Origin: Nereocystis luetkeana
Taxonomy: Eukaryota > Sar > Phaeophyceae > Laminariales > Laminariaceae
Direction: 5' to 3'
DNA: 64,000 bases
Assembly (NCBI GenBank): GCA_031213475.1
Contig: JARUPZ010000024.1
Location: 5,984,038 to 6,048,037, forward strand
The notes beneath the pieces were generated by a model. The model had not been told where the DNA came from. It saw only the letters and a list, made by a program, of their open reading frames with translations, and did no database searches. Each line of letters begins with the position of its first letter. Position 1 is the first letter of the stretch. A program made the translations under genes and the position numbers. Below, piece after piece: positions 12,223 through 63,833 of the stretch.

Positions 12223-12283
12223 AGCCCGCCTCATCCGAGCCCACATCAAACAGCATCCGCTACATCCCCCCCCCCCCCCCCCT

Positions 12284-12545
12284 CTGCCAAGAGGCCACAC
12301 CAGAAAATAAGTCAATTCATTGACGCTGTCATCCATATGCAAGAAAGTCTGCCTAAAAAGCGGTTCTTAGTAGGATGCAGCTCATCCTTCATGCGACTCG
12401 CTCAACTTCTCACGGTAGCGCTTCGCGCTTGGTGCAAGCAATGTCTGCCTGGTCGGTGAAAACCCGACGTGCTTCGTCCCGGCATTGTAGGGATGCGAGG
12501 GTCTATGGTCATACGACTACGGCCATTGCATGATGATGAGTATAC
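12284..12545 (+). mobile_element. Poly(C) retroposon family 2, near full-length copy
   Basis: About 262 bp on the plus strand, with a C-run of about 18 at its 5' side (12265-12283) and a short C5 at its 3' side. Internal landmarks: GTCATCCATATGCAAG, CGGTTCTTAGTAGGATGCAG, CGCTTCGCGCTTGGTGCAAG, TGCCTGGTCGGTGAAAACCC, TATGGTCATACGACTACGGC, and the terminal ATGAGTATACTCCCCC. It has no open frame and is probably non-autonomous. Confidence 0.8.
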
Positions 12546-15819: not shown

Positions 15820-16142
15820 TTAGTCGTAGCTCAGATCCGGGGTCACACAGCAACTAGGCTCTTTCCTCCTCCCTCCCTCCCTCCCTCCCTTCCTCCCTCC
15901 CTCCCTCCCACCCTCCCTCCCTCCCTCCCTTCCTGCCCCCCTCCCTCCCTCCCTTCCTCCCCCCCTCCCTCCCTCTCCTCCCTCCCTCCCTCCCTCCCTC
16001 CCTCCCTCCCTCCCTCCCTCCCTCCCTCCCTCCCTCCTTTCCTCCCTCCCTCCCCACTACGGTTTGTGCCTTGGGAAGGCATTATTATCGCGAGAAGAAG
16101 ACCTCAGCAATTTTTTTCCTCTCCTCGGCTCGCGCCTGATAC
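15820..16142 (-). mobile_element. SINE family E copy with internal CCCT expansion
   Basis: In minus orientation it shows CTCGCGATAATAATGCCTT, a GTAGTGGGGAGGG block and GTGTGACCCCGGATCTGAG as in the copies at 57.1 and 59.9 kb. The short purine stretch in those copies is here expanded into about 190 bp of GGGA repeat (plus-strand CCCT, 15866-16055). The SINE therefore seeded or received a microsatellite. Confidence 0.7.
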
Positions 16143-17600: not shown

Positions 17601-18600
17601 GGGTTCGCCACAAGAGGGTGATGGCTAACCCCCTTTGTACATAGAACTGCACTGCCGTACCCTGCCGTACAAAAACAAGTGTTTTCAGTCAAACTTGAAA
17701 AAAGTTGTTCATTCGACCACGAAAAACGGGTTGTGCAGAGTCTTGAGACGGGGTTCGGGGGGGGGGGGGGGAACAACTCTCGGGTTTGCAGAGGGGCGAA
17801 AAATTGAGGGGGTAAAAAAAAACGTTGACGGAGTGTGTATCATACACGCAACGGCTAACCCGTGATTGAGGGAGGAGAGGGGGGGGGGGGAAGGGGGCGT
17901 ACTCAGTTATTGCTTGCCTTAGTCGGGGAGAGGGGATGCGTAACAAATTGGTGTCCGAGTTACCAGGTACCAGGTACAACACAAGGAGGCGTTTGGCACG
18001 GGGGGGACAACAACATCATCGTATTATACCCGTACCGCCGAAACCATGGTTGATATCTCACCGAAAAGTCATGGTTGATTCAGGCGCCATCGAGGGGTTC
18101 CAAAAGGGGGACGTACAAGCCACCCGGGTAACCGAACGCCGCGCTGCCACCTAATCTTGTCGCTCTCGCACATATCGACGTAGCGGCTACCTCTACGGCT
18201 CCCGACAGCACTTAGAAATACACCCCCTTTTGAAAGGGGGGACAACACGCTTCATATTTTAGGCTTTTACAGTCGGAGACTTTCAGTTTATGTACGTACA
18301 GCAGCGCAATTCCAAGAGGGGAAGAGAAAGTGAGTACTCTCTACGGCGAAAGGGGCCGACGGAAACCATTTTCAAGGGTCGAGTGCGGCACGAAAGCCCT
18401 TTTGAAAAAACAAAACAAAAAAAAACACCCGTTTTAAAAAAACACCAAAATTATCAAAAAAGCGCAACGTAGGACTTGGAAGGACACACCCTTTCTTTAC
18501 CTCACGCTAAACACCAGGTAGGAATCTTGAAAGCCTTGAGCCCAAAAACAAGACTTTGCCATCAACCCCTTTAGCACTGCGCTCCCATGGGGCGGGGGCG
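17601..18600. other. Intronic DNA of the hydroxylase gene, no other feature supported
   Basis: Contains G-runs at 17756-17773 and 17879-17890, a double TACCAGGTACCAGGTA at 17961-17976, and A-rich runs near 18400-18460. No coding signal recognised. Confidence 0.4.
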
Positions 18601-18602
18601 AA

Positions 18603-18668
18603 GCATTCAGATTCTAAGCAGCTTGTCCCCAACACGGGACTGACTGCAGTCCTAAAGGTGCTAATGGC
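18603..18668. mobile_element. MITE family B, right-half remnant
   Basis: AGATTCTAAGCAGCTTGTCC, then an ACACGGGACTG block and CAGTCCTAAAGGTG, match the right arm with changes. The left arm is absent. Confidence 0.5.
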
Positions 18669-18759: not shown

Positions 18760-18773
18760 GGGGGGGGGGGGGG
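18760..18773. repeat. Poly(G) tract (3' junction of family 2 copy)
   Basis: G14 on the plus strand, that is the poly(C) tail of the minus-strand family 2 copy at 18774-18878. Confidence 0.9.
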
Positions 18774-18878
18774 TACTCGATAGGAGAGATGTACTCGTTC
18801 TCATGCATGGCCGTAGTCGTATGACCATAGACCCTCGCATCCCTACAATGCCGGGACGGAGCATGTCGGGTTTTCACC
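18774..18878 (-). mobile_element. Poly(C) retroposon family 2, 5'-truncated copy
   Basis: About 105 bp from GGTGAAAACCCGACATGCTC to the terminal CGAGTAC and poly(C). G-runs flank it on both sides (18760-18773 and 18879-18893). On the minus strand it follows directly after the family 1 LINE, separated only by the C-run, so the two are arranged head-to-tail. Confidence 0.85.
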
Positions 18879-18893
18879 GGGGGGGGGGGGGGG

Positions 18894-20903
18894 CGTACTC
18901 ATTTGTTGCTTGCCTTAGTCATTTGACCATTGACCACGCATCCCTTTCGAGACGGAGCACCGTTCCTACTCCTAATAGAGACACCTCCAACAATTGGGCG
19001 CTCATTACGTTGTTTCCATATATTACATAGAAACTTTTTGCTAATCTTATCCCCTTCCTGTTTGGCCGCCTGTGGCCACCATCTATCTCCTAGGATAGCG
19101 ATCGTTTTCTCGCTGCTATCTAGTGTGTCAAACTCCTCCATGTCACATTCTTCTATTTCCCTCATCTCCTCTTCTAACACATCCCGTTCCTCCTTGTATA
19201 TTTCACATTCTCCTACTATGTGAGTTCTACTCTATCGCTTTGCCACACGGGCACATCTGTGCATCTATTTCCTCCTCCTCCCGACTACTGGTATACCTCT
19301 TTCTTCTTTCTGGCAAGTCCAGGTCACCTACACGAAAGCGCAGCTTCAGCGTTTTCGCGAAGTCCATTGGGCCGTGCAGATACGTTTTGATTCCTATTCC
19401 TTCCCTCAATCTCCCGTATATCTCTAGGTGTTTTTCCGATTCCACCTTGTTTCGTAGCGCTAGCCTTTCCCTTCTTTCTATCCTTTCTTCTACTTCTGCC
19501 TTGTACTTCCCAAACTTCCCGGCGAACATCACCTCTTCTTGGTTTCCCCCTATATCCTTCCATACTTCCTCAACTACGCTATCCCACCTTATTCCAGTTC
19601 GCCCTTTTGTTACTTTCTCCCATATAGCTTTATCAACTATGGCCGGCAACCTCTTTTTTGGCATGTTCCTTACTTTATATTGCCATTTCAACTTTCTCAT
19701 ATCCCTGTTTGTCTTGAGTGGGTGCATTCCCAGTTCTGCTCTTAATACTGTATTACTAGTCGTACTTGAGCATCTTAGGATTTTTTTAGCTGCTGTCATC
19801 TGTACTGTTTCCAACTGTTTTACGAGTTTCGCATTCCCTTCCCATACTTCTCCTGCATAATCTAGCTTTGGTACTATCACATTCATCAGGATACATCTCT
19901 TAATCCTGGTGTCAAGGTGCGAGTCTGTTAGGATCGCATCCATCTTGCGTGTGTGTGTGCTTTACCCTTTCCTATTACTTTTGCTATATGTGTATCCCAA
20001 GAGCAGTCTTTTGAGATCTCTACGCCAAGGTACGTATACTGGTCTACGATCGGCAATTCATCTTCTCCCCACTTCCAACTGAAATTTATCGGGTTCACCT
20101 TATCTTCGTTACAAACAACTACTGCGCATTTCTTGACGTTCGCCGTCACCCTCCATTTCCTAGTGTATTCTAGCGCGTTCTCTATTTGTTTCTGCAATCC
20201 TTCGGGTGTTTCTGATATCCCCACGAAGTCATCAGCAAACATCAATCCCGACACTGTATCTTCCCCTACCGTGACTCCCTGCCTTGCTGCTTCAACTGCT
20301 ACTATCAGGTCGTTAATATATATCTTGAATAGGTTGGGTGACAGCGTACATCCCTGTGCAACTCCTGGTAAAATATCAACATACTTCGATATTTCCCCGT
20401 CCAGCATCACAGCACTTCTCGCACATTCCGTCATACTTTTCATCATTCTCCACATCTTTCCTCTGATTCCTATTTCCCATAGTTTTTCCCACGATCCATT
20501 TCTCCATACTGTGTCGTAGGCCTTCTGTACATCTAGAAAGAAACAGTACGTTGTTAGTCCCGCGTCTTTCCTACCTTGGATTATCTTACCTAGAGTGTAC
20601 ACATGGTCTACGCAGCTACGGTTTGGCCTAAACCCTGCTTGCCCTTCGCTTATTTTGTCTTCCTTCTCCATCATCGTTCCCATTCTATCGGTCAGAATCT
20701 TCTAAAATGTTTTGCCTACTGTGCTTAGTAGCGTTATCCCTCTAAAGTTCCCCGGGTCAGCCTTATCTCCTTTCTTGACTAAGTTTACTACTACTCCTTC
20801 TCTCCACCTCCTGGGTGCGTACTCGTTTTTCCATATCCAGTTATACAACATAACCAGCATGGTAAGCATTCCTTCTCCCCCGTACTTCATAAATTCATTC
20901 ATT
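18894..20903 (-). mobile_element. Poly(C)-tailed LINE (family 1), 5'-truncated, ~2.0 kb
   Basis: The minus-strand non-LTR element starts in C19 (plus 20904-20922) and ends in C15 (plus 18879-18893). It carries the reverse transcriptase and a C-terminal domain. Its stop codon TGA lies within the terminal motif TGAGTAC, about 6 bases before the C-run, so it has practically no 3' UTR. Shorter copies with the same 3' end are at 33120-33347 and 62301-62406, also enclosed by C-runs. Confidence 0.9.
18899..20903 (-). pseudogene. ORF2 remnant of the family 1 LINE (RT plus CxC...H...C domain)
   Basis: Order on the minus strand. 20900-20702: RT N-terminal part with WREGVVVNLVKKGDKADPGN and ITLLSTVGKTF. 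After an in-frame stop, 20683-19928: GQAGFRPNRSCVDHV, FLDVQKAYDTVWR, GVAQGCTLSPNLFKIYINDL, the catalytic FADDF, and TYLGVEI. After a frameshift, 19943-19227: a helical C-terminal region ending DAQMCPCGKAIE. 19180-18899: completes a C-x-C...H...C pattern (GECEIY) and runs to KASNK-stop. The upstream endonuclease is missing. It is disrupted at three or more points, so this copy is dead. Confidence 0.85.
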
Positions 20904-20922
20904 GGGGGGGGGGGGGGGGGGG
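20904..20922. repeat. Poly(G) tract at the LINE 5' junction
   Basis: G19 on the plus strand. Because the LINE is 5'-truncated, this run represents the pre-existing target rather than element sequence. Confidence 0.9.
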
Positions 20923-21013
20923 CTTTAGCACCCCCGTCCCGATTTGGGGACAAACCAGCTTAATTCCAAGTGATTTGTCCCCAAAACGGGACTGGGGTCC
21001 TAAAAGGGTTAAT
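20923..21013. mobile_element. MITE family B copy
   Basis: Hairpin element: CCCGATTTGGGGACAAACC and GGTTTGTCCCC-type arms, ending CCTAAAAGGGTTAATAA. The left end is diverged where it meets the G-run. Confidence 0.8.
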
Positions 21014-21109
21014 AACCTTTCTGGTACCGCAGTCCCGTGTTTGGGGACGAACTAGTCGAATTTCAGGTAGTTTGTCCCCAAAACGGGACTGCGGTCCAAA
21101 AAGGGTTAT
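21013..21109. mobile_element. MITE family B copy, tandem to the previous one
   Basis: Left end ACCTTTCTGGTACCGCAG, arms GTGTTTGGGGACGAACTAG and TAGTTTGTCCCCAAAACGG, right end AAAAAGGGTTATAA. It shares the TTAATAACC junction with the neighbouring copy, consistent with insertion at its TTAA end. Confidence 0.8.
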
Positions 21110-28973: not shown

Positions 28974-29262
28974 TGTACGCGATAGGAGAGATGTACTCGA
29001 TCTCATGCGTGGCCGTAGTCGTATGACCATAGACCCTCGCATCCCTACAATGCCGGGACGGAGCATGTCGGGTTTTCACCGAACAGGCAGACATTGCTTG
29101 CACCAAGCGCGAAGCGCTACCGTGAGGTGTCCGGCGAGTCGCATGAAGGGTGAGTTGCATCCTACTAGGTAATAACCGTTTGTGAGGCGGACTTGCATAT
29201 GGATGACATCTTCAATAAGTCAATTGAATTTCCGGTGTATCATAGCCACTTCCAGAGACACC
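28974..29262 (-). mobile_element. Poly(C) retroposon family 2, longest copy
   Basis: Minus strand, about 289 bp. It begins near CTCCCATTGGTGTCTCTGG, then GAAGATGTCATCCATATGC, CAACTCACCCTTCATGCG, ACCTCACGGTAGCGCTTC and the TGCTTGGTGC... core. It ends CGCGTACAC-C(n) (plus G-run 28961-28973). The 5' side also meets CCCCCC. Confidence 0.85.
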
Positions 29263-29810
29263 AATGGGAGGGGGGATGAATCCACCGACAGAATCCCGCG
29301 ACAACAAACATGAGAGAGAAAAAGAAACGAACAAACAAAAAGACCCTTACGGCCACCCCCTACGCTCGTACTAGCGGGGGGGGGAGGGGAAAGAGAGGAG
29401 GTGCACGGCATCACATTCAAATGCTGCCGGGGGAGTGGCATCATGAAACACAGACACAAACAAAAACGAAATGGAAATGGAAAACAAAAACAAAAACAAA
29501 AACAAAGAAGTTTCTTCTGGCTCTTAATGTTACTTCACGTGCATTTATTCGATGGCGGCCGTTGCATGGGCATACAGAAGTGCACGACATTTGTCGAGAA
29601 ATTTATCGCTGTATGGCTTCCAGGCTGAACATTCCTGTTTTTATTCAAGAAAGTACCGCCACAGCAGCAGTACTAGAACCAGCGAGGACGCCGCTCCGAA
29701 TCCTCTACGACAACACCCGTCGAGAGCCAATAGGCTCAACCAAACGTTGTCATCACAACAAGCCGCGAGCCTTCTGAGACAAAAACTACTGCTGTAGTAG
29801 GAGGTTACTT
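29263..29810. other. Intronic DNA without supported gene
   Basis: Short frames only. Contains a repeated AAACAAAAACAAAAACAAAA stretch near 29485-29505 and TACTGCTGTA at 29788. Confidence 0.4.
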
Positions 29811-30227: not shown

Positions 30228-31795
30228 CTGCGGCAGCAACGACAGCATCGTATGAGCATATGTACAGACAGTATATACAGCAGCACATATACGCGCGACA
30301 TTTGACGAAAAAAAAAAATAGTACCAGGTAGTATTTATAATTGGGAGTTCATGCATGAATTTTTCCAGGCAGGCCGACTTTTTTTTTTTTTTTTTAATTT
30401 TTCAAATACGAAAACGTAATTCAAGAAATTTACAGCTGAAACAAGCATTTCAAAATGTGTGCTCTGCAAGGAACCGCCGCTCTAAATCCTACCACTCTGT
30501 CCGGAAATATAGGAACGGTTCAATTACAAATATGGGAATGAATGGATCCTTACATTTCCGGACAGATCGGTACGTATCAGGCACCGGTATACACGGTAGC
30601 CTTTTACGGAGCCTCTGCTAAAATAAACGTTGATATCACCGTATTAAGCCGCGAGCCTTCTGTGCCAAAATAGGAGATTCTTAACAGCTGACACGTACTG
30701 CTGCAGATACAGAGGCAGGAACGGAGACAACGTTGACGTTCGTAGGGCAAAGCGAGTGTCCCAAAAAATTACGAATGCGCGCCAAAAACTACGGGGGGGG
30801 GGGGGGGGGGGGGGGGGGATCTTATTCCGGCCTCGCGTGCCCGAATCTATGATATCTCCGTGTCCCGTCTTAAGACGAACGACCGGAGTCCTCCTCGAAA
30901 ACGAGCAAACCGAGGAACGGTCGAGTTTTTTTCACCATCCATCCCCGCCATCGCCATCGCACGCAAGCTGACGACAGTTCCGAACAACAACAGCGTGAGC
31001 CCCTATATAGGGACACGTAGCTACAGCGAGCGTATTTGATGACGAGATGCTCCTCCGCACGTAATACGACTGCTGTACTACTTGAGTGGAAAACAGGCAC
31101 GTCAAAATACGATGCAATTATTTTCGTAGCTCCTGCGCGTTTTTTTATTTATTTTTTTTCTCATGTGGTGTCGAAAGAGAATAAGTATTACGGTACTTTT
31201 GCACAAAAAAAATAGAGGAATAAAAGAAAAGTACCGAAAACAACAGCTGAGAGGTCGAGGACGTCGTCGGATCTCATCTTCGCAACGAAACTGTGTGTGA
31301 TACGGATGTATGTATTTCGATCGCGCGTATTACGGGTCTCATATAGCCTCTACGCTCGCGGTCACGTGCCCCCCCCCCCACGGCCACCCTCTCAGCGGCT
31401 CCTCCGCGGCTACGTGTGCCTCCAGGATGGACGGACGGGCGGGCGGTCGTAAGTGTAAGTACACCTGCCTCAGGTCTATATAGACCCGCGAAAAACAGAA
31501 GTAAGCCTGACCAAGAACATGGGGGCTCACTGTTTAGGGGGGGGGGCTGGGAAACGCGGATTAAGAAATCGCGCTCAGCGGGGAACGGTGCGCTAAACCC
31601 TAAACCCTGTATACTGCGCCTGTATGCGCAAGGGTCACTTTGTGGAGGACGCTACGCTAAGAAAATCGGAACACGTAAGAAATCGTGTCCGGCTGCGAGC
31701 ACTATAATAGACTACCCGGTACTACTGTAGTAGTAAATCCAACCAGGTGCCAGGTATACAAGGAGTAGCCTATGCTCAAAGGGATAAGTTATAGT
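30228..31795. other. Intron 2 region without other supported gene
   Basis: Holds TACCAGGTA at 30322, a poly(G) of about 26 at 30793-30818, a CCCTAAACCCT telomere-like stretch at 31597-31608, and short unconvincing frames. Around 30430-30660 there is A/T-richer unique DNA. Confidence 0.4.
30793..30818. repeat. Poly(G) tract without retroposon
   Basis: A run of about 26 G. It is an apparently unoccupied tract of the kind used as target by retroposon families 1 and 2. Confidence 0.9.
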
Positions 31796-32757: not shown

Positions 32758-33098
32758 ACCTTCTGTAGATGCTTGTTTGCAGGCGGGCCCATACTGAAAT
32801 CAAGTGTAACGGCAGGCTGTCGAAGGTAAGGGAGGCAGCATTAACTCGAAACGGAACCTCCCCCCTCCCCCCCCCCCCCCCCCCCCCCCGCCCCGCCCCG
32901 CCCGCGCGCGCGCGTAACTTACATCTCTATTCTACGATACGTTCCGTGCGTGGTGGGGGAAAAAAAAACTCTTGGGCCGAGCCAGTGACACACAGACACA
33001 CACACCTGCACTGCACCACCCACACATGTATTTGCAACGCGATTTACGATGATTCCAGGTTCACGCCGAAGAATATCAAGGGGTGAAAGAGGAGGGGA

Positions 33099-33119
33099 GG
33101 GGGGGGGGGGGGGGGGGGG
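33099..33119. repeat. Poly(G) tract, 3' junction of family 1 copy
   Basis: A G-run of about 21 preceded by GGAGGGGAGG. On the minus strand this is C(n)TCCCCTCC. Confidence 0.9.
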
Positions 33120-33347
33120 CGTACTCATATGTTGCTTGCCCTTAAGTGATTTGACCATTGACCAAGTATCCCATTCGAGACGGAGCACCGTTCCTGCTCC
33201 TAATAGAGACACCTCCAAATATTTGGGCGCTCAATACGTTGTTTCCATATATTACATAGAAACTTTTTGCTGCTGTAATCCTATCCCCTTCCTGTTTGGC
33301 CGCCTGTGGCCACCATCTATCTCCTAGGATAATAGCGATCGTTTGGA
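33120..33347 (-). mobile_element. Poly(C) LINE family 1, 3'-end copy (228 bp)
   Basis: Aligns along its full length with the 3' end of the LINE at 18894 (CTATCCTAGGAGATAGATGG, GCGGCCAAACAGGAAGGGG, GGTGTCTCTATTAGGAGCAG, ATGAGTACGC). 5'-truncated, flanked by G-runs on both sides. TCC next to the C-run at the 5' junction recurs at the 3' flank and may be part of a target duplication. Confidence 0.9.
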
Positions 33348-34334
33348 GGGGGGGGGGGGGGGGGCGGGGGGGAATGGCCACGCCCGATCGGTCTTACAAA
33401 TGAATCGAATGCCAAACACACACACAATACACTCTGGTACGCGTTTATTTTTTGGACAACGCTGATGGCAACCGAGATCCGCACCACAAGGTAAGGACTT
33501 CGCGCGCGCGACTCCCCCGAGTTTTGAGAGTTAATGCCAGTTTCTTACCATGTGGCTTGCGACGTCATCCAGGAGAGACTGTTGGGGGGCGCGAGGACGC
33601 CAGCGGCGATTGGGCACGGCGAATGACACACAAAAAGGCAGCGGGCGGCGAAGAAAGGAATGGGGAGGGGGAAAAGAAAAAAACCGGTTTTGAATCACCC
33701 GACGGTAGGGGTTTGCACGATTTGGGCCAAAGGATTCTGACCAATGGAGTTCCTAAAGTGAGGAACTACCAGTTACTGTAGGATGAAAAAGTTTCCCTCG
33801 TATATTCGTTTTAGGACTAGCGCATACAAGTGCCGGTCGGATGGCACGAACGAATTTCTTCCAAGTATTTTATCGGGTGAGATATTGAGCTCCCAAGGTG
33901 AGGGGTTCAGGAACTTCTGGTGCGCCCCTACCGTGGGATGGCTCGTTTATACATAAAAAGCCGGAAGTTATCATGCGTTGCTTGATAGATCTCCAATCGC
34001 CACTGACTGGTAGGGCTCAGGCCACGGGATGTGTACATAGTACGGCCTGATGGACAAAAAAATAAAAATATGTATGCTTGGCATTTTGACGTCTTGATAC
34101 CTTGATGCTTCGATCTTCAATTTACTTGTTGTTTGGCATCCCAGGGAGGCGGACAGAACCGCCCAACCACTCGCCACGCACCGGAACCAGGATAAGCATG
34201 ACATGATTAGCACCAGCGGAGAAATTGCACAACAAAATAGATTTGGACGTACTTTTCATACCACCTGGCACCCCGTTCCCATTTGGTCCTTCGACCCCGC
34301 AGTATGCCCATCCCATTGGACATCCTGCTCCCGC
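33348..34334. other. Intron 2 DNA without supported gene
   Basis: G-runs at 33348-33372, then mixed DNA. The plus frame 33452-33781 (109 codons) is charged and shows no known motif. Not supported as a gene. Confidence 0.4.
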
Positions 34335-37655: not shown

Positions 37656-38012
37656 ATAGAGATAGAGGGACTATCTGAAGTACTTACCTGTAGGACTACT
37701 GGCTGTTGCGCGCTCATGAAGTAGGGAGGCGGTTCATGAAATACAACAACAACAACAACAACAACAAATATGCCGGTGTTTTGCACGCTTTTTACAGGGT
37801 TCCAACAGGGATAACGCCTTCCTGTCGCGTATGAAACCATACTGATATTTCATGGTCGACGCCCGGCCGCTGAAAGAAGCAAGAAAATCAAAGCGTGGCA
37901 AATTATCGAAGTTATATTGGGAAATGAAAATGTCCTCGTAATTGCCCACGTGTGTATCTTTAACGTCCACCGAATGATCGGTTGTCTTCGATAGGAAGCA
38001 ACAGGAGAAACA

Positions 38013-38340
38013 GGGGAGGGGAGGAGAGGGGAGGGGAGGGGAGGGGAGGGGAGGGGAGGGGAGGGGAGGGGAGGGGAGGGGAGGGGAGGGGAGGGGAGGG
38101 GAGGGGAGGGGAGGGGAGGGGAGGGGAGGGGAGGGGAGGGGAGGGGAGGGGAGGGGAGGGGAGGGGAGGGGAGGGGAGGGGAGGGGAGGGGAGGGGAGGG
38201 GAGGGGAGGGGAGGGGAGGGGAGGGGAGGGGAGGGGCGGGGGGCGGAGAGGAGGGGAGGGGAGGGGAGGGGAGGGGAGGCGAGGGGAGGAGAGGAGAGGA
38301 GAGGGAAGGCGAGGGAAGGGGAGCAGAGCGGAGGGGACGG
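38013..38340. repeat. (GGGGA)n pentanucleotide repeat
   Basis: More than 50 nearly perfect GGGGA units on the plus strand, decaying rightward into GGAGA and GGGAA variants. It ends about 30 bp from the exon 2 donor of the hydroxylase. On the gene strand it reads (TCCCC)n at the start of intron 2. Long Pro/Ser/Leu and Gly/Glu/Arg frames here are artefacts. It has strong G-quadruplex potential. Confidence 0.97.
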
Positions 38341-40379: not shown

Positions 40380-40400
40380 CGGGGGGGGGGGGGGGGGGGG
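40380..40400. repeat. Poly(G) tract
   Basis: A run of about 20 G, not occupied by a retroposon. Confidence 0.9.
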
Positions 40401-52448: not shown

Positions 52449-52741
<293 letters not shown>

Positions 52742-52799
52742 TACTGAATTGATGGCGTTGTTGTTTATACGACGAGAGTAGTTCACGCTGACTGTCTGA

Positions 52800-57035: not shown

Positions 57036-57245
57036 TCTATATGACGGCACAATTCGATGCGAGTCGACGAGGGAAAAAAATGCTGAAATCTTCTCGCGAT
57101 AAAAAATGAAGGCACGTACCGTAGCGGGAAGGGGGGAAAAGAGCCTGCTATGTGACCCCGGATCTGAGTTACGAGTTGGAAGGAGAGAGAGAAGAAGATG
57201 TGCGAAGATAATAAATGGGATGAAAAAAAAATAAAAATATGAAAC
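57036..57245 (+). mobile_element. SINE family E, 5'-truncated copy with A-rich tail
   Basis: CACAATTCGATGCGAGTCGA ... CTCGCGATAAAAAATGAAGG ... TGTGACCCCGGATCTGAG ... GGGATGAAAAAAAAATAAAA. It shares about 190 bp with 59889-60075, in the opposite orientation. The A-rich 3' end marks it as a retroposon. Confidence 0.8.
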
Positions 57246-58845: not shown

Positions 58846-59084
58846 TCCGCCAGTACCTTGATCCCAACGGGAACCAAAATACCTGAACAGCCTGCCAACC
58901 TAAAGATCATTTCTCCTAGATTGTAATGGGACCTCGACGACAATGTGCAGCATGGAGCTTTCACGTTGATCAATCAAATCCCTGAAACAAGAAATCTCCG
59001 TATACGAATAACTATTGAGTACCAGGTACTCGTGTAGACTGCCCAGGTATATACCAGTCGGGGGGGTGGGGGGGGGGGGGGGGC

Positions 59085-59117
59085 GGGTACTCATTGTCAT
59101 GGATGGCCGTAGTCGTA
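59085..59117 (-). mobile_element. Poly(C) retroposon family 2, minimal copy
   Basis: Only 33 bp of the 3' end (TACGGCCATCCATGACAATG, AGTACCC) embedded in G-runs on both sides (59060-59085 and 59117-59136). The shortest copy in the window, a strongly 5'-truncated insertion. Confidence 0.75.
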
Positions 59118-59867
59118 GGGGGGCGGGGGGGGGGGGTGACAGTCTCACAGATAGATGGCGTGGGGGTGAAGCCAGGACCCGGCTTAGGAATGAAGGGTAG
59201 AGTGTAGAGGGGAATGTCATTCGGAAAGAAAGGAGCGAGGACAGCAATTAGTTGTGAATTGAAGCAGATAAGAGGTCAACCCCCTTCGGGTGGGGTGTTG
59301 GAAGATTACGACCAATAAACCAATGGTAATTTGGGTGTTACGAGTTATCAATCGTCTACGAGCAAGCGTGAGCGCCCTGCAGCATCAAGGGCGGGATCAT
59401 GTTGGGCCCGTGCCGTGCTAAAGTGACGTCGGATTACGTAATTACAGCCCATACTCCCTGATCGCACAAACCATACATTTCTATAGGAAACCCCTGCATT
59501 TTTTTTGTTTTTGTTTTTTTTTTCGACTCCCGCTATATACGAGTATATGTGCAAGGGGGAGCGGTCGGCACGAATCTTTGTGCAGGGCGTGCGTCGTCAG
59601 TTTCAAACTTGCAGGTCGGCTCAGACCAACACGAACACGGACCCGAATCCCAACCCATTGGGGGGCTCGAGTTAGGCAGGGGCAGTCCCGCGCGGCTCCA
59701 CCGCGTGTTTTGTTGGCGTTTCTCCAAAAAACGTCCGGGCGGCTGAAAGGCCAGCCTTGACCGATAAGACCCGCATCCTGCACATGAGAGCGAGCCCGTT
59801 TTTTTTTTTCCCCTCCCTGGACGCTGTATTTGGGCTCCGAGCTGCGACCCTGCGAGCTGCTGCTACG

Positions 59868-60245
59868 ACATTTTTTTTTTTTTTTTTTTGCTCATCCCAT
59901 TCATTGTATTCGCACATCTTCTTCTCTCTTTCCTTCCAACTCGTAACTCAGATCCGGGGTCACATAGCAGGCTCTTCTACCCCCTTCCCGCTACGGTACG
60001 TGCCTTCATTTTTATCGCGAGAAGATTTCAGCCTTTTCTTCCCTCGTCGACTCGCATCGAATTGTGCCTACCCACGCTGCAAGGCGCTCTCAACAATTGA
60101 ATCCTTTTTTATTTTTATTTTTGCAAATAAAGGCAAAGTCCGACCCACCTGGGGCTCGAACCCAGGACGACACATGGGGCTGTCTGTCGTCATGGATGGC
60201 CAAGAAGTCGACGGACAAAGGTGTTCGCGAGAAATTAAGGGCGGA
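59868..60245 (-). mobile_element. SINE family E, full-length copy with tRNA-like head and poly(A) tail
   Basis: Minus strand. The head at 60245-60140 has TTGGCCATCCATG (A-box-like) and CTGGGTTCGAGCCCCAG, a perfect T-arm-like stem-loop with a B box. Then a body with CTTCTCGCGATAAAAATGAAG and TGTGACCCCGGATCTGAG, ending GGGATGAGC and an A-run of about 20 (plus T-run 59869-59888). The acceptor and anticodon arms do not form a proper tRNA. Complete unit about 375 bp. Confidence 0.75.
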
Positions 60246-62284: not shown

Positions 62285-62300
62285 CCCCCCCCCCCCCCCC
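62285..62300. repeat. Poly(C) tract, 5' junction
   Basis: C16, followed by TGCTTCAA. The same C-run plus TGCTTCAA recurs after the family 2 copy (62637-62664). Confidence 0.9.
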
Positions 62301-62406
62301 TGCTTCAATTGTTGGAGGTGTCTCTATTAGGAGTAGGAACGGTGCTCCGTCTCGAAAGGGATGCGTGGTCAATGGTCAAATGACTAAGGTAAGCAACAAA
62401 TGAGTA
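62301..62406 (+). mobile_element. Poly(C) LINE family 1, short 3'-end copy
   Basis: About 100 bp, CAATTGTTGGAGGTGTCTCT ... GGTAAGCAACAAATGAGTAC followed by C18. Identical in layout to the LINE 3' end at 18894. TGCTTCAA at its 5' junction is probably half of a target duplication. Confidence 0.9.
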
Positions 62407-62424
62407 CCCCCCCCCCCCCCCCCC

Positions 62425-62636
62425 TCCGCCTCAAAAGCGGTTCTTAGTAGGATGCAGCTCACCGTCCAATGCGACTCGCCAGACACCTCACGGCGCTTCG
62501 CGCTTGGTGCAAGCAATGTCTGCCTGGTCGGTGAAAACCCGACATGCTCCGTCCCGGCATTGTAGGGATGCGAGGGTCTATGGTCATACGACTACGGCCA
62601 TGCATGAGATCGAGTACATCTCTCCTATCGAGTACA
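62425..62636 (+). mobile_element. Poly(C) retroposon family 2 copy downstream of the family 1 copy
   Basis: TCCGCCTCAAAAGCGGTTCT ... GAGATCGAGTACATCTCTCC ... CGAGTACAC followed by C21. It is separated from the preceding family 1 copy only by a C-run. The order (family 1, C-run, family 2, C-run) equals that at 18.76-20.92 kb. Confidence 0.92.
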
Positions 62637-62659
62637 CCCCCCCCCCCCCCCCCCCCTGC

Positions 62660-63833
62660 TTCAAATGCCCCGAGATGTGAGACGAAACCTGGGCTGCGGC
62701 CAGCAGCCACCAGCAATCGAAACCTCGATTTTTTATGGCTTGCAAAGAGTATATTTTTGACGCGTGTATATAGATATCACAACTGTACCTTGGATGCTTC
62801 TATAGTGTCCTATGTGTAGTAAAGAAATAATACAAGGTGGCCAATCCACATACATGTGTATTGTGTGCAAATCATCCATCACCCAATCCGCACCCGATGT
62901 ATCACACCCTCGCTACTCGCCCTTTTGAGTTTCACAGCTGTCAGATGTTTGTTCCCTCTCAATACGGAAAAAAACATGCTTCATGAAGTAATATAAACCC
63001 GTACGAGTAGTACGCGCCATCGAAGCATCATACATCAACCTGCGCTAGCATGCAAAAAAAATGTGAGTTTCGACCAAAGCCTCGACCTCATCACAGCTCT
63101 CACAGCTCCATGTTTTTTTTTTTTTTGTAAAACGTTTTTTTTTGTTTCTAGTAATTCCTGGCAATCATTTTTTTTTTTTTTCTTTGTCTTGTCACTGCTG
63201 TCACCTGCTGTACCAGGTACGGCCACGAGTATGCCAGTATAAAATATGCCCTTTTTTCTTGCTGTGGAATACTGCTGTCATACATACCCCCGTGCATAAT
63301 CTGTGTGTCACTGCTGCTGCTGCTGCTGGCGTATGATTCAAATCCCGGTGAAACGGTCCTTCGGGCGCCGAGAGCGCGACAGGTTAGAATTGGCGAACGC
63401 TGTGACCCTCTTGGGGAAGCTTTTATAACCCTCTTGTGGAGGCGTTTACATAGCTGCGAGCAGAAAAAAAAAACGACGAGAGAGTGCGATCTCACCGAAA
63501 GTCACTGCCGAGATACGTACGCAACGGGCTCTCTGTCTTGGGACTTTAGAGGGGGGAAAAAAAAAATGCCGATACCGCATGACGTGTACGACAACGGCCG
63601 CTGCTGCGCAATCGGGGGGTGATACGAATTGGTGTCGTCCGAGTCACAATTGTTGGATGCAACGAGTCGTGGGCACTGGAGCGAGATGATCCCACCCGTT
63701 ACTGCCGGACGCTTCAAGCTGCTCTTTATGTATGACGGTTGAAAACACCACAAGTTACCGTTGTGTTTTTCGTCCCTTGTCTCGAGCTCCAAGAGGGGGT
63801 CATTGACAGCAGGAAGTAGAGCTTGCATGTTTG
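62660..63833. other. Stretch without supported gene
   Basis: T-runs at 63113-63126 and 63168-63181, short CTG runs near 63312-63328, TACCAGGTA at 63211. No gene recognised. Confidence 0.4.

Follow-up and report, generated by a model that had tools for sequence, protein, structure and literature searches.

We describe a LINE family of the brown alga Nereocystis luetkeana that encodes an APE-type endonuclease and whose insertion target is very probably a C:G homopolymer with its C-run on the sense strand. Most copies carry a C-run at their 5' junction, some are bounded by duplications of the bases that follow the run, and paralogous empty sites carry a C-tract at the insertion point. A shorter non-autonomous partner with similar ends lies between C-runs as well, and the two kinds of element form strings joined by C-runs.

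LINE copies in the window

The window, by which we mean the whole 64 kb stretch of DNA analysed here, contains three LINE copies that end in a common ...GAGTAC(G), start at different 5' truncation points and are enclosed by C-runs of 15-21 on both sides, all of which the earlier note had described and our analysis confirmed. The edges it gave held for the copy at 18894-20903, while those at 33120-33347 and 62301-62406 were each trimmed by a few bases at the 5' edge, as 33345-33347 (TCC) and 62301-62305 (TGCTT) are probably target bases outside the LINE copies. The features of the three loci are as follows.

18894..20903, minus strand: 5'-truncated LINE copy, the last ~2.0 kb (part of the reverse transcriptase (RT), C-terminal region, 3' end)
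19928..20683, minus strand: RT open reading frame fragment (Pfam RVT_1, PF00078, E 2.6e-25)
18879..18893, minus strand: C15 (G15 on plus) at the 3' end of the 18894..20903 copy, common to the neighbouring non-autonomous copy
20904..20922, minus strand: C19 (G19 on plus) at the 5' truncation point of the 18894..20903 copy
33120..33344, minus strand: 5'-truncated LINE copy, ~90% identical to the full-length reference
33099..33119, minus strand: C21 (G21 on plus) at the 3' end of the 33120..33344 copy
33345..33364, minus strand: C17 and TCC at the 5' end of the 33120..33344 copy; the G17 on plus is 33348-33364
62306..62406, plus strand: 5'-truncated LINE copy of ~100 bp
62285..62305, plus strand: C16 (62285-62300) and TGCTT, the 5' half of a likely target-site duplication
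62407..62424, plus strand: C18, separating the 62306..62406 LINE copy from the partner element

The longest of the three copies aligned at 97.3% to the full-length reference copy L051. At the second, the TCC of the sense strand is found again past the 3' C-run, a short possible duplication. At the third, the TGCTTCAA of the 62285..62305 side reappears at 62657, past the partner element, and LINE and partner (62301-62664) lie jointly inside an apparent single duplication of Cn-TGCTTCAA.

C-runs at the junctions of genomic copies

The earlier note had proposed that the 5' flanks of many genomic copies be inspected, and we searched the 465 Mb genome for further copies of the LINE. A 211 bp query from the LINE 3' end gave 2534 candidates, of which 40 were scored and 30 fetched; an RT protein query gave 4021, of which 150 were scored and 30 fetched. 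As the fetched copies were the best-scoring ones, they are mostly young. The resulting main sample comprised 62 entries, namely 60 loci and two window copies, and 46 of these remained after removal of three duplicates (L002, L024, L045), one entry without the 3' end (L056) and 12 whose 5' end lay beyond the fetched DNA. The 5' boundary was set automatically in 41 of the 46 and by eye, guided by alignment, beside a C-run in the other five (L033, L035, L040, L046, L051). Identity to one reference had a median of 96.6% (range 90.2-100, 61 entries), a similarity that indicates that the copies are probably young. Nearly every copy ends at the fixed GAGTAC(G), with L049 a few bases short, and the closed copies show 39 different 5' truncation positions, the combination of variable 5' truncation and fixed 3' end that characterizes LINEs.

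We counted a 5' C-run wherever at least seven consecutive C's fell within 30 nt upstream of the 5' boundary. Such a run was present in 35 of the 41 automatically closed copies and in all five placed by eye, giving 40/46, and in the copies sampled these flanks clearly bore out the proposal of a C-run on the 5' side. A position picked at random has a run of this kind with a probability of 1.4% in the window (both strands) and 2.7% at the same loci, where the figure for runs of G is 1.4%; these backgrounds are counts of positions, not of copies of another LINE family. The runs are strand-asymmetric, with runs of at least seven G, A or T upstream of the 5' boundary in 0/46 copies. On the other side, at least seven C's followed within 30 nt of the 3' end in 46/46. 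In the 35 automatic passes, the element begins 0-15 nt past the C-run, directly at the run in six and at most 7 nt from it in 30. The 3' run was longer than the 5' run (the latter measured within 30 nt) in 23 of these 35 copies, shorter in 10 and equal in two. All three full-length copies that were fetched (L033, L040, L051) have a C-run beside the 5' end; in two of them, L033 and L051, some bases separate this run from the common element start.

A 5' run of seven C's was missing from six of the 46 copies. The C-tract is impure in L048 and short in L015, L049 is the copy without the last bases of the 3' end, and L019 looks rearranged; L007 and L025 are plain exceptions to the rule. As a replicate, we took the first 21 RT-protein matches, among those not fetched earlier, that start at residue 31 or later. 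Of these places, 14 were closed (C31:5312251 included), six open and one (L090) without an alignment reaching the fetched edge; L079 and L089 turned out to be parts of copies L021 and L029, which are open in the main sample. The rule was passed by 12 of 13 closed copies, or 13 of 14 with C31:5312251, the exception being L085. Across the main sample and the replicate the 5' runs span 7 to 41 C, and most truncated copies of this family have at their 5' junction the simple repeat that is expected of a simple-repeat-specific LINE.

Six low-identity RT matches (L066-L071) were considered as a different LINE family, and this was rejected, as they belong to the family itself: five are older copies, 80-90% identical at the DNA level, that have the family 3' end followed by a C-run or a C-rich tail, and the sixth is an internal fragment. 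The 5' edge is closed in two of these five; one of them, L068, satisfies the 5' rule, and at the other, L067, the sequence is C-rich but impure, with no run longer than CCCCC. No C-run was seen at L070, the internal fragment without a 3' end.

Target sites before insertion

We then asked whether the bases that separate the element from the 5' C-run reappear downstream of the 3' C-run. By an automatic rule, at least 3 nt recurred in 15/46 copies; 300 shuffles of the 3' flanks averaged 3.7 such copies and never gave more than 8. At least 4 nt recurred in 9/46, compared with a shuffled mean of 0.95; two of the 15 have a boundary placed by eye, and compound cases such as 62301-62664 are missed by the rule. 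In L003, for instance, the C-run is followed by TGCT at the 5' side and by TGCTCCCG at the 3' side, and the bases common to both sides are TGCGTGA in L043, TATTATATA in L058, TATTT in L001 and TGGACA in L004, of which the last base or two in L043, L001 and L004 may be element sequence. Target-site duplications, another hallmark of LINEs, are hence visible in these 15 copies and invisible in the other 31, where the automatic test found no recurring bases beyond the C-run. A cut inside the C-run may account for such copies, as it would leave no duplication visible.

Empty sites gave a second view of the target. A different repeat family was hit twice at the same C-tract, by L030 in one member and independently by L042 in another, and two uninterrupted members of that family lie in the window.

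57048..57227, minus strand: empty paralogue of the L030/L042 insertion sites, with CCCCCCTTCCC at the insertion point
59879..60078, plus strand: second empty paralogue of these sites, with CCCCCTTCCC at the insertion point

Altogether, CCCCCCTTCCC was found in three of four uninterrupted members (window 57048-57227, L039 and L048) and CCCCCTTCCC in one (window 59879-60078), and the C-run is longer in a fifth member, the more diverged one in L027. The empty sites thus carry the repeat, for two insertions and at sites that are paralogous, not orthologous, with C-tracts that are shorter and interrupted.

Alternatively, the 5' C-run might be made by the insertion itself, either from bases added by the reverse transcriptase or by twin or dual priming as has been proposed for primate L1. 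Homopolymers at the 5' side of L1 loci are indeed described in parts of PMC2837659, some 3' C's may be added here given the excess length of the 3' runs, and the 31 copies with no recurring bases have nothing that places the run in the target. The L1 loci described in those parts of PMC2837659, however, carry the tail in inverted orientation (poly T in place of poly A), whereas in the present family the two runs consist of C on one and the same strand, and none of the 46 copies has seven or more consecutive G upstream. The recurring bases exceed the shuffled expectation, and the empty paralogues of the L030 and L042 sites carry the C-tract; we therefore regard a 5' run made during insertion as very unlikely. 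Two observations indicate that a C-run was present in the target: it is duplicated together with unique bases, and a C-tract occurs at the paralogous empty sites. They support the suggestion of the earlier note that the target itself was poly(C).

A non-autonomous partner

The LINE is accompanied by a non-autonomous partner element of ~510 bp, whose 5' end matches that of the LINE over 43 bp at 84% and whose 3' end matches over ~54 columns at 76%; a 3' end common to a LINE is a feature of SINEs. At least seven C's precede 20 of 23 truncated and seven of nine full-length partner copies, a sample in which most copies lie near LINE copies and so are not independent. This count started from 58 rows, less nine without the 3' end, 14 below 80% identity, one open and two duplicates. 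With both LINE ends and C-run flanks, the partner shares the insertion habit of the LINE, as had been anticipated for a retroposon in the window. ARAGORN detected no tRNA in 62381-62700, where the only partner copy is a truncated one, and no Rfam match reached the gathering score anywhere in the window. The partner copies in the window are listed below.

18774..18878, minus strand: 5'-truncated partner between G14 (18760-18773) and G15 (18879-18893)
62425..62636, plus strand: 5'-truncated partner, followed by C20 (62637-62656)
12283..12542, plus strand: partner copy, preceded by C17 (12266-12282)
28974..29270, minus strand: partner copy, 5' side CCCCCC (below the rule of at least seven), 3' side C12
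49878..50108, minus strand: partner copy, 5' side CCCCCCCC-GACGCTGA, with CCCCC-GACGCTGA past the 3' end

The flanks of the last copy are an apparent duplication, with an uncertain edge as the alignment also counts GACGCTGA as element.

Strings of elements and their C-runs

Many copies sit next to one another. A family 3' end lies across the 5' C-run in 14/46 LINE copies and a family member across the 3' C-run in 11/46, with one or the other in 18/46. Among the 28 copies without a family neighbour, 23 still have the 5' C-run. The family thus uses the tails of earlier copies as targets, along with other sites. These neighbours raise a different explanation, in which a C-tailed LINE inserts at random, and loss elsewhere or recombination between C-tails leaves mainly those copies that are joined by C-runs; the apparent rearrangement of L019 would agree with it. 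Against this stand the 28 copies that adjoin no family member and for the most part keep their 5' run, the probable youth of the copies and the duplications present in some of them, and we consider it even less likely than a 5' run made during insertion. Preferential insertion into C-runs remains our reading. The order of insertions can be read from the strings of elements.

In the window, 28 C/G runs of at least 12 occur in 64 kb, of which 11 touch a detected family copy and 17 touch none (for example 30793-30818, 32867-32889 and 40381-40400). These 17 may represent targets that have stayed empty or what is left of very short copies. Since the elements may plant C/G runs, they may help to explain why the window has many of them.

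Homopolymer length is error-prone in long reads, and one could suppose that base-calling introduced homopolymers at element ends during assembly. The 5' runs, however, comprise 7 to 41 C on one strand and beside different flanks in 48 of the 55 automatically closed copies, L044 and L045 represent the same copy on two contigs with identical runs, and 17 of the 28 long C/G runs in the window touch no detected copy. An assembly artefact is accordingly extremely unlikely.

Protein domains and relatives

Full-length LINE copies measure about 5.9-6.8 kb. Pfam identified the RT domain PF00078 twice, in the window fragment listed above and with an E value of 2.8e-28, and in a sequence search the RT matched 10 PDB sequences, L1 ORF2p and R2 included. 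Upstream of the RT, an ORF piece of L033 contains an APE-type endonuclease (PF03372, E 6.2e-13); the corresponding piece of L040, with its N-terminal part missing, gave no Pfam match. In none of the five copies read at length are endonuclease and RT encoded in one open frame. The 5' part of L051 holds tandem repeats.

Among the 120 RT relatives listed, the best protein with a eukaryote name is from Ectocarpus (P0004, 73%). A protein named as belonging to a Hyphomicrobiales bacterium MAG (P0002) is 93% identical to the LINE RT and probably derives from algal DNA that ended up in a bacterial genome bin. No relatives from outside the genome were found in collections of genome contigs and viral contigs.

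Proposed mechanism and comparison with known elements

With both runs being C on the sense strand, and the duplication, where visible, extending past the 3' end of the run, the insertions fit target-primed reverse transcription with a nick in the G strand. We propose that the endonuclease would nick the G strand of a C:G tract, either within the tract or at its border, and that the freed 3' end, a run of G, would pair with a C-run that would follow the 3'-terminal GAGTACG in the element RNA and so prime reverse transcription. Reverse transcription would often halt early, leaving a 5'-truncated copy, and with the C strand cut 0-15 nt past the tract's 3' end, the duplicated target would consist of the C-run and those bases. 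The excess length of the 3' runs is what C's supplied by the RNA, or slippage of the enzyme, would produce. The same machinery may move the ~510 bp partner, whose ends are similar. Copies ending in a C-run would in turn create new targets, giving strings of elements separated by C-runs.

Waldo, Kibi and Koshi are microsatellite-specific LINEs. L1-type LINEs have an A/T-rich nick site (TTTT/AA) and a poly(A) tail; a short A/T site suffices for them, and their 5' flank is not normally a long homopolymer. Like L1, the LINE described here has a tail homopolymer that can pair at the nick to prime copying, as well as 5' truncation and target-site duplications, and unlike L1 it has 7 to 41 C at the 5' end of most copies.

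That LINEs target other simple repeats was already stated in the earlier note, and is illustrated by Mino, an (AC)n-specific LINE of the R1 clade (parts of PMC3124438), and by Togen, specific for (TG)n, and some HERO families (parts of PMC4640811). As far as these sources go, the present LINE resembles such microsatellite-specific LINEs in its insertion into a simple repeat and in its APE-type endonuclease, which is also used by target-specific LINEs of the R1 and Tx1 clades (parts of PMC4640811). It differs from Mino, Togen and HERO, as they are portrayed there, in that its repeat is a single-base run with C on the sense strand, its host is a brown alga, and its own 3' tail is the same run as the target, so that copies multiply targets. 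In Ectocarpus, RTE-X LINEs are abundant and accompanied by a ~600 bp non-autonomous element, RTEX-N1_Ec32 (parts of PMC12477816), and the present family is likewise a very abundant LINE of a brown alga with a non-autonomous element that has a common 3' end. Main-text parts of PMC12477816 do not mention a poly(C) target for RTE-X, a comparison made at the level of published description. Within a limited literature search, no poly(C)-specific LINE was among the matches listed, in line with the earlier statement that no LINE specific for a C homopolymer is known to have been described. LINEs for microsatellites are known, and within that search the pure C homopolymer appears to be what is new here.

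It is tempting to speculate, although we hold this somewhat below even confidence, that these are the first LINE and partner to target a pure C:G homopolymer and that the system is self-seeding, each insertion laying down C-runs that serve as the next landing pads and so spreading both C-runs and strings; in the same tentative spirit, what the endonuclease recognizes may be an unusual DNA shape adopted by the tract (G-quadruplex, i-motif or similar) rather than its base sequence. Target-specific LINEs serve to study site recognition by nicking enzymes and are under development as gene-insertion tools, and a LINE for single-base runs would offer a very simple target whose recognition is directly testable in vitro.

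Other repeats

Some further repeats were observed in and around the elements. Fragments of ~30-40 bp that resemble family 3' ends lie beside G-runs at window positions 59084-59124 and about 17896-17925, and are probably extremely short insertions. A repeat of ~105-110 bp occurs inside LINE bodies (about 216-320 of L033 in the sense direction, with similar ones in L012 and L023), is absent from sibling copies and looks like a small DNA transposon. A motif around cttgtcccc and acgggact is repeated on both sides of the LINE copy at 18894..20903 (window 18600-18660 and 20930-21100) and is probably another abundant repeat. Long simple-repeat arrays are present in the window at 38012-38337 (AGGGG), 52449-52745 (CTA) and 15868-16054 (CCTC).
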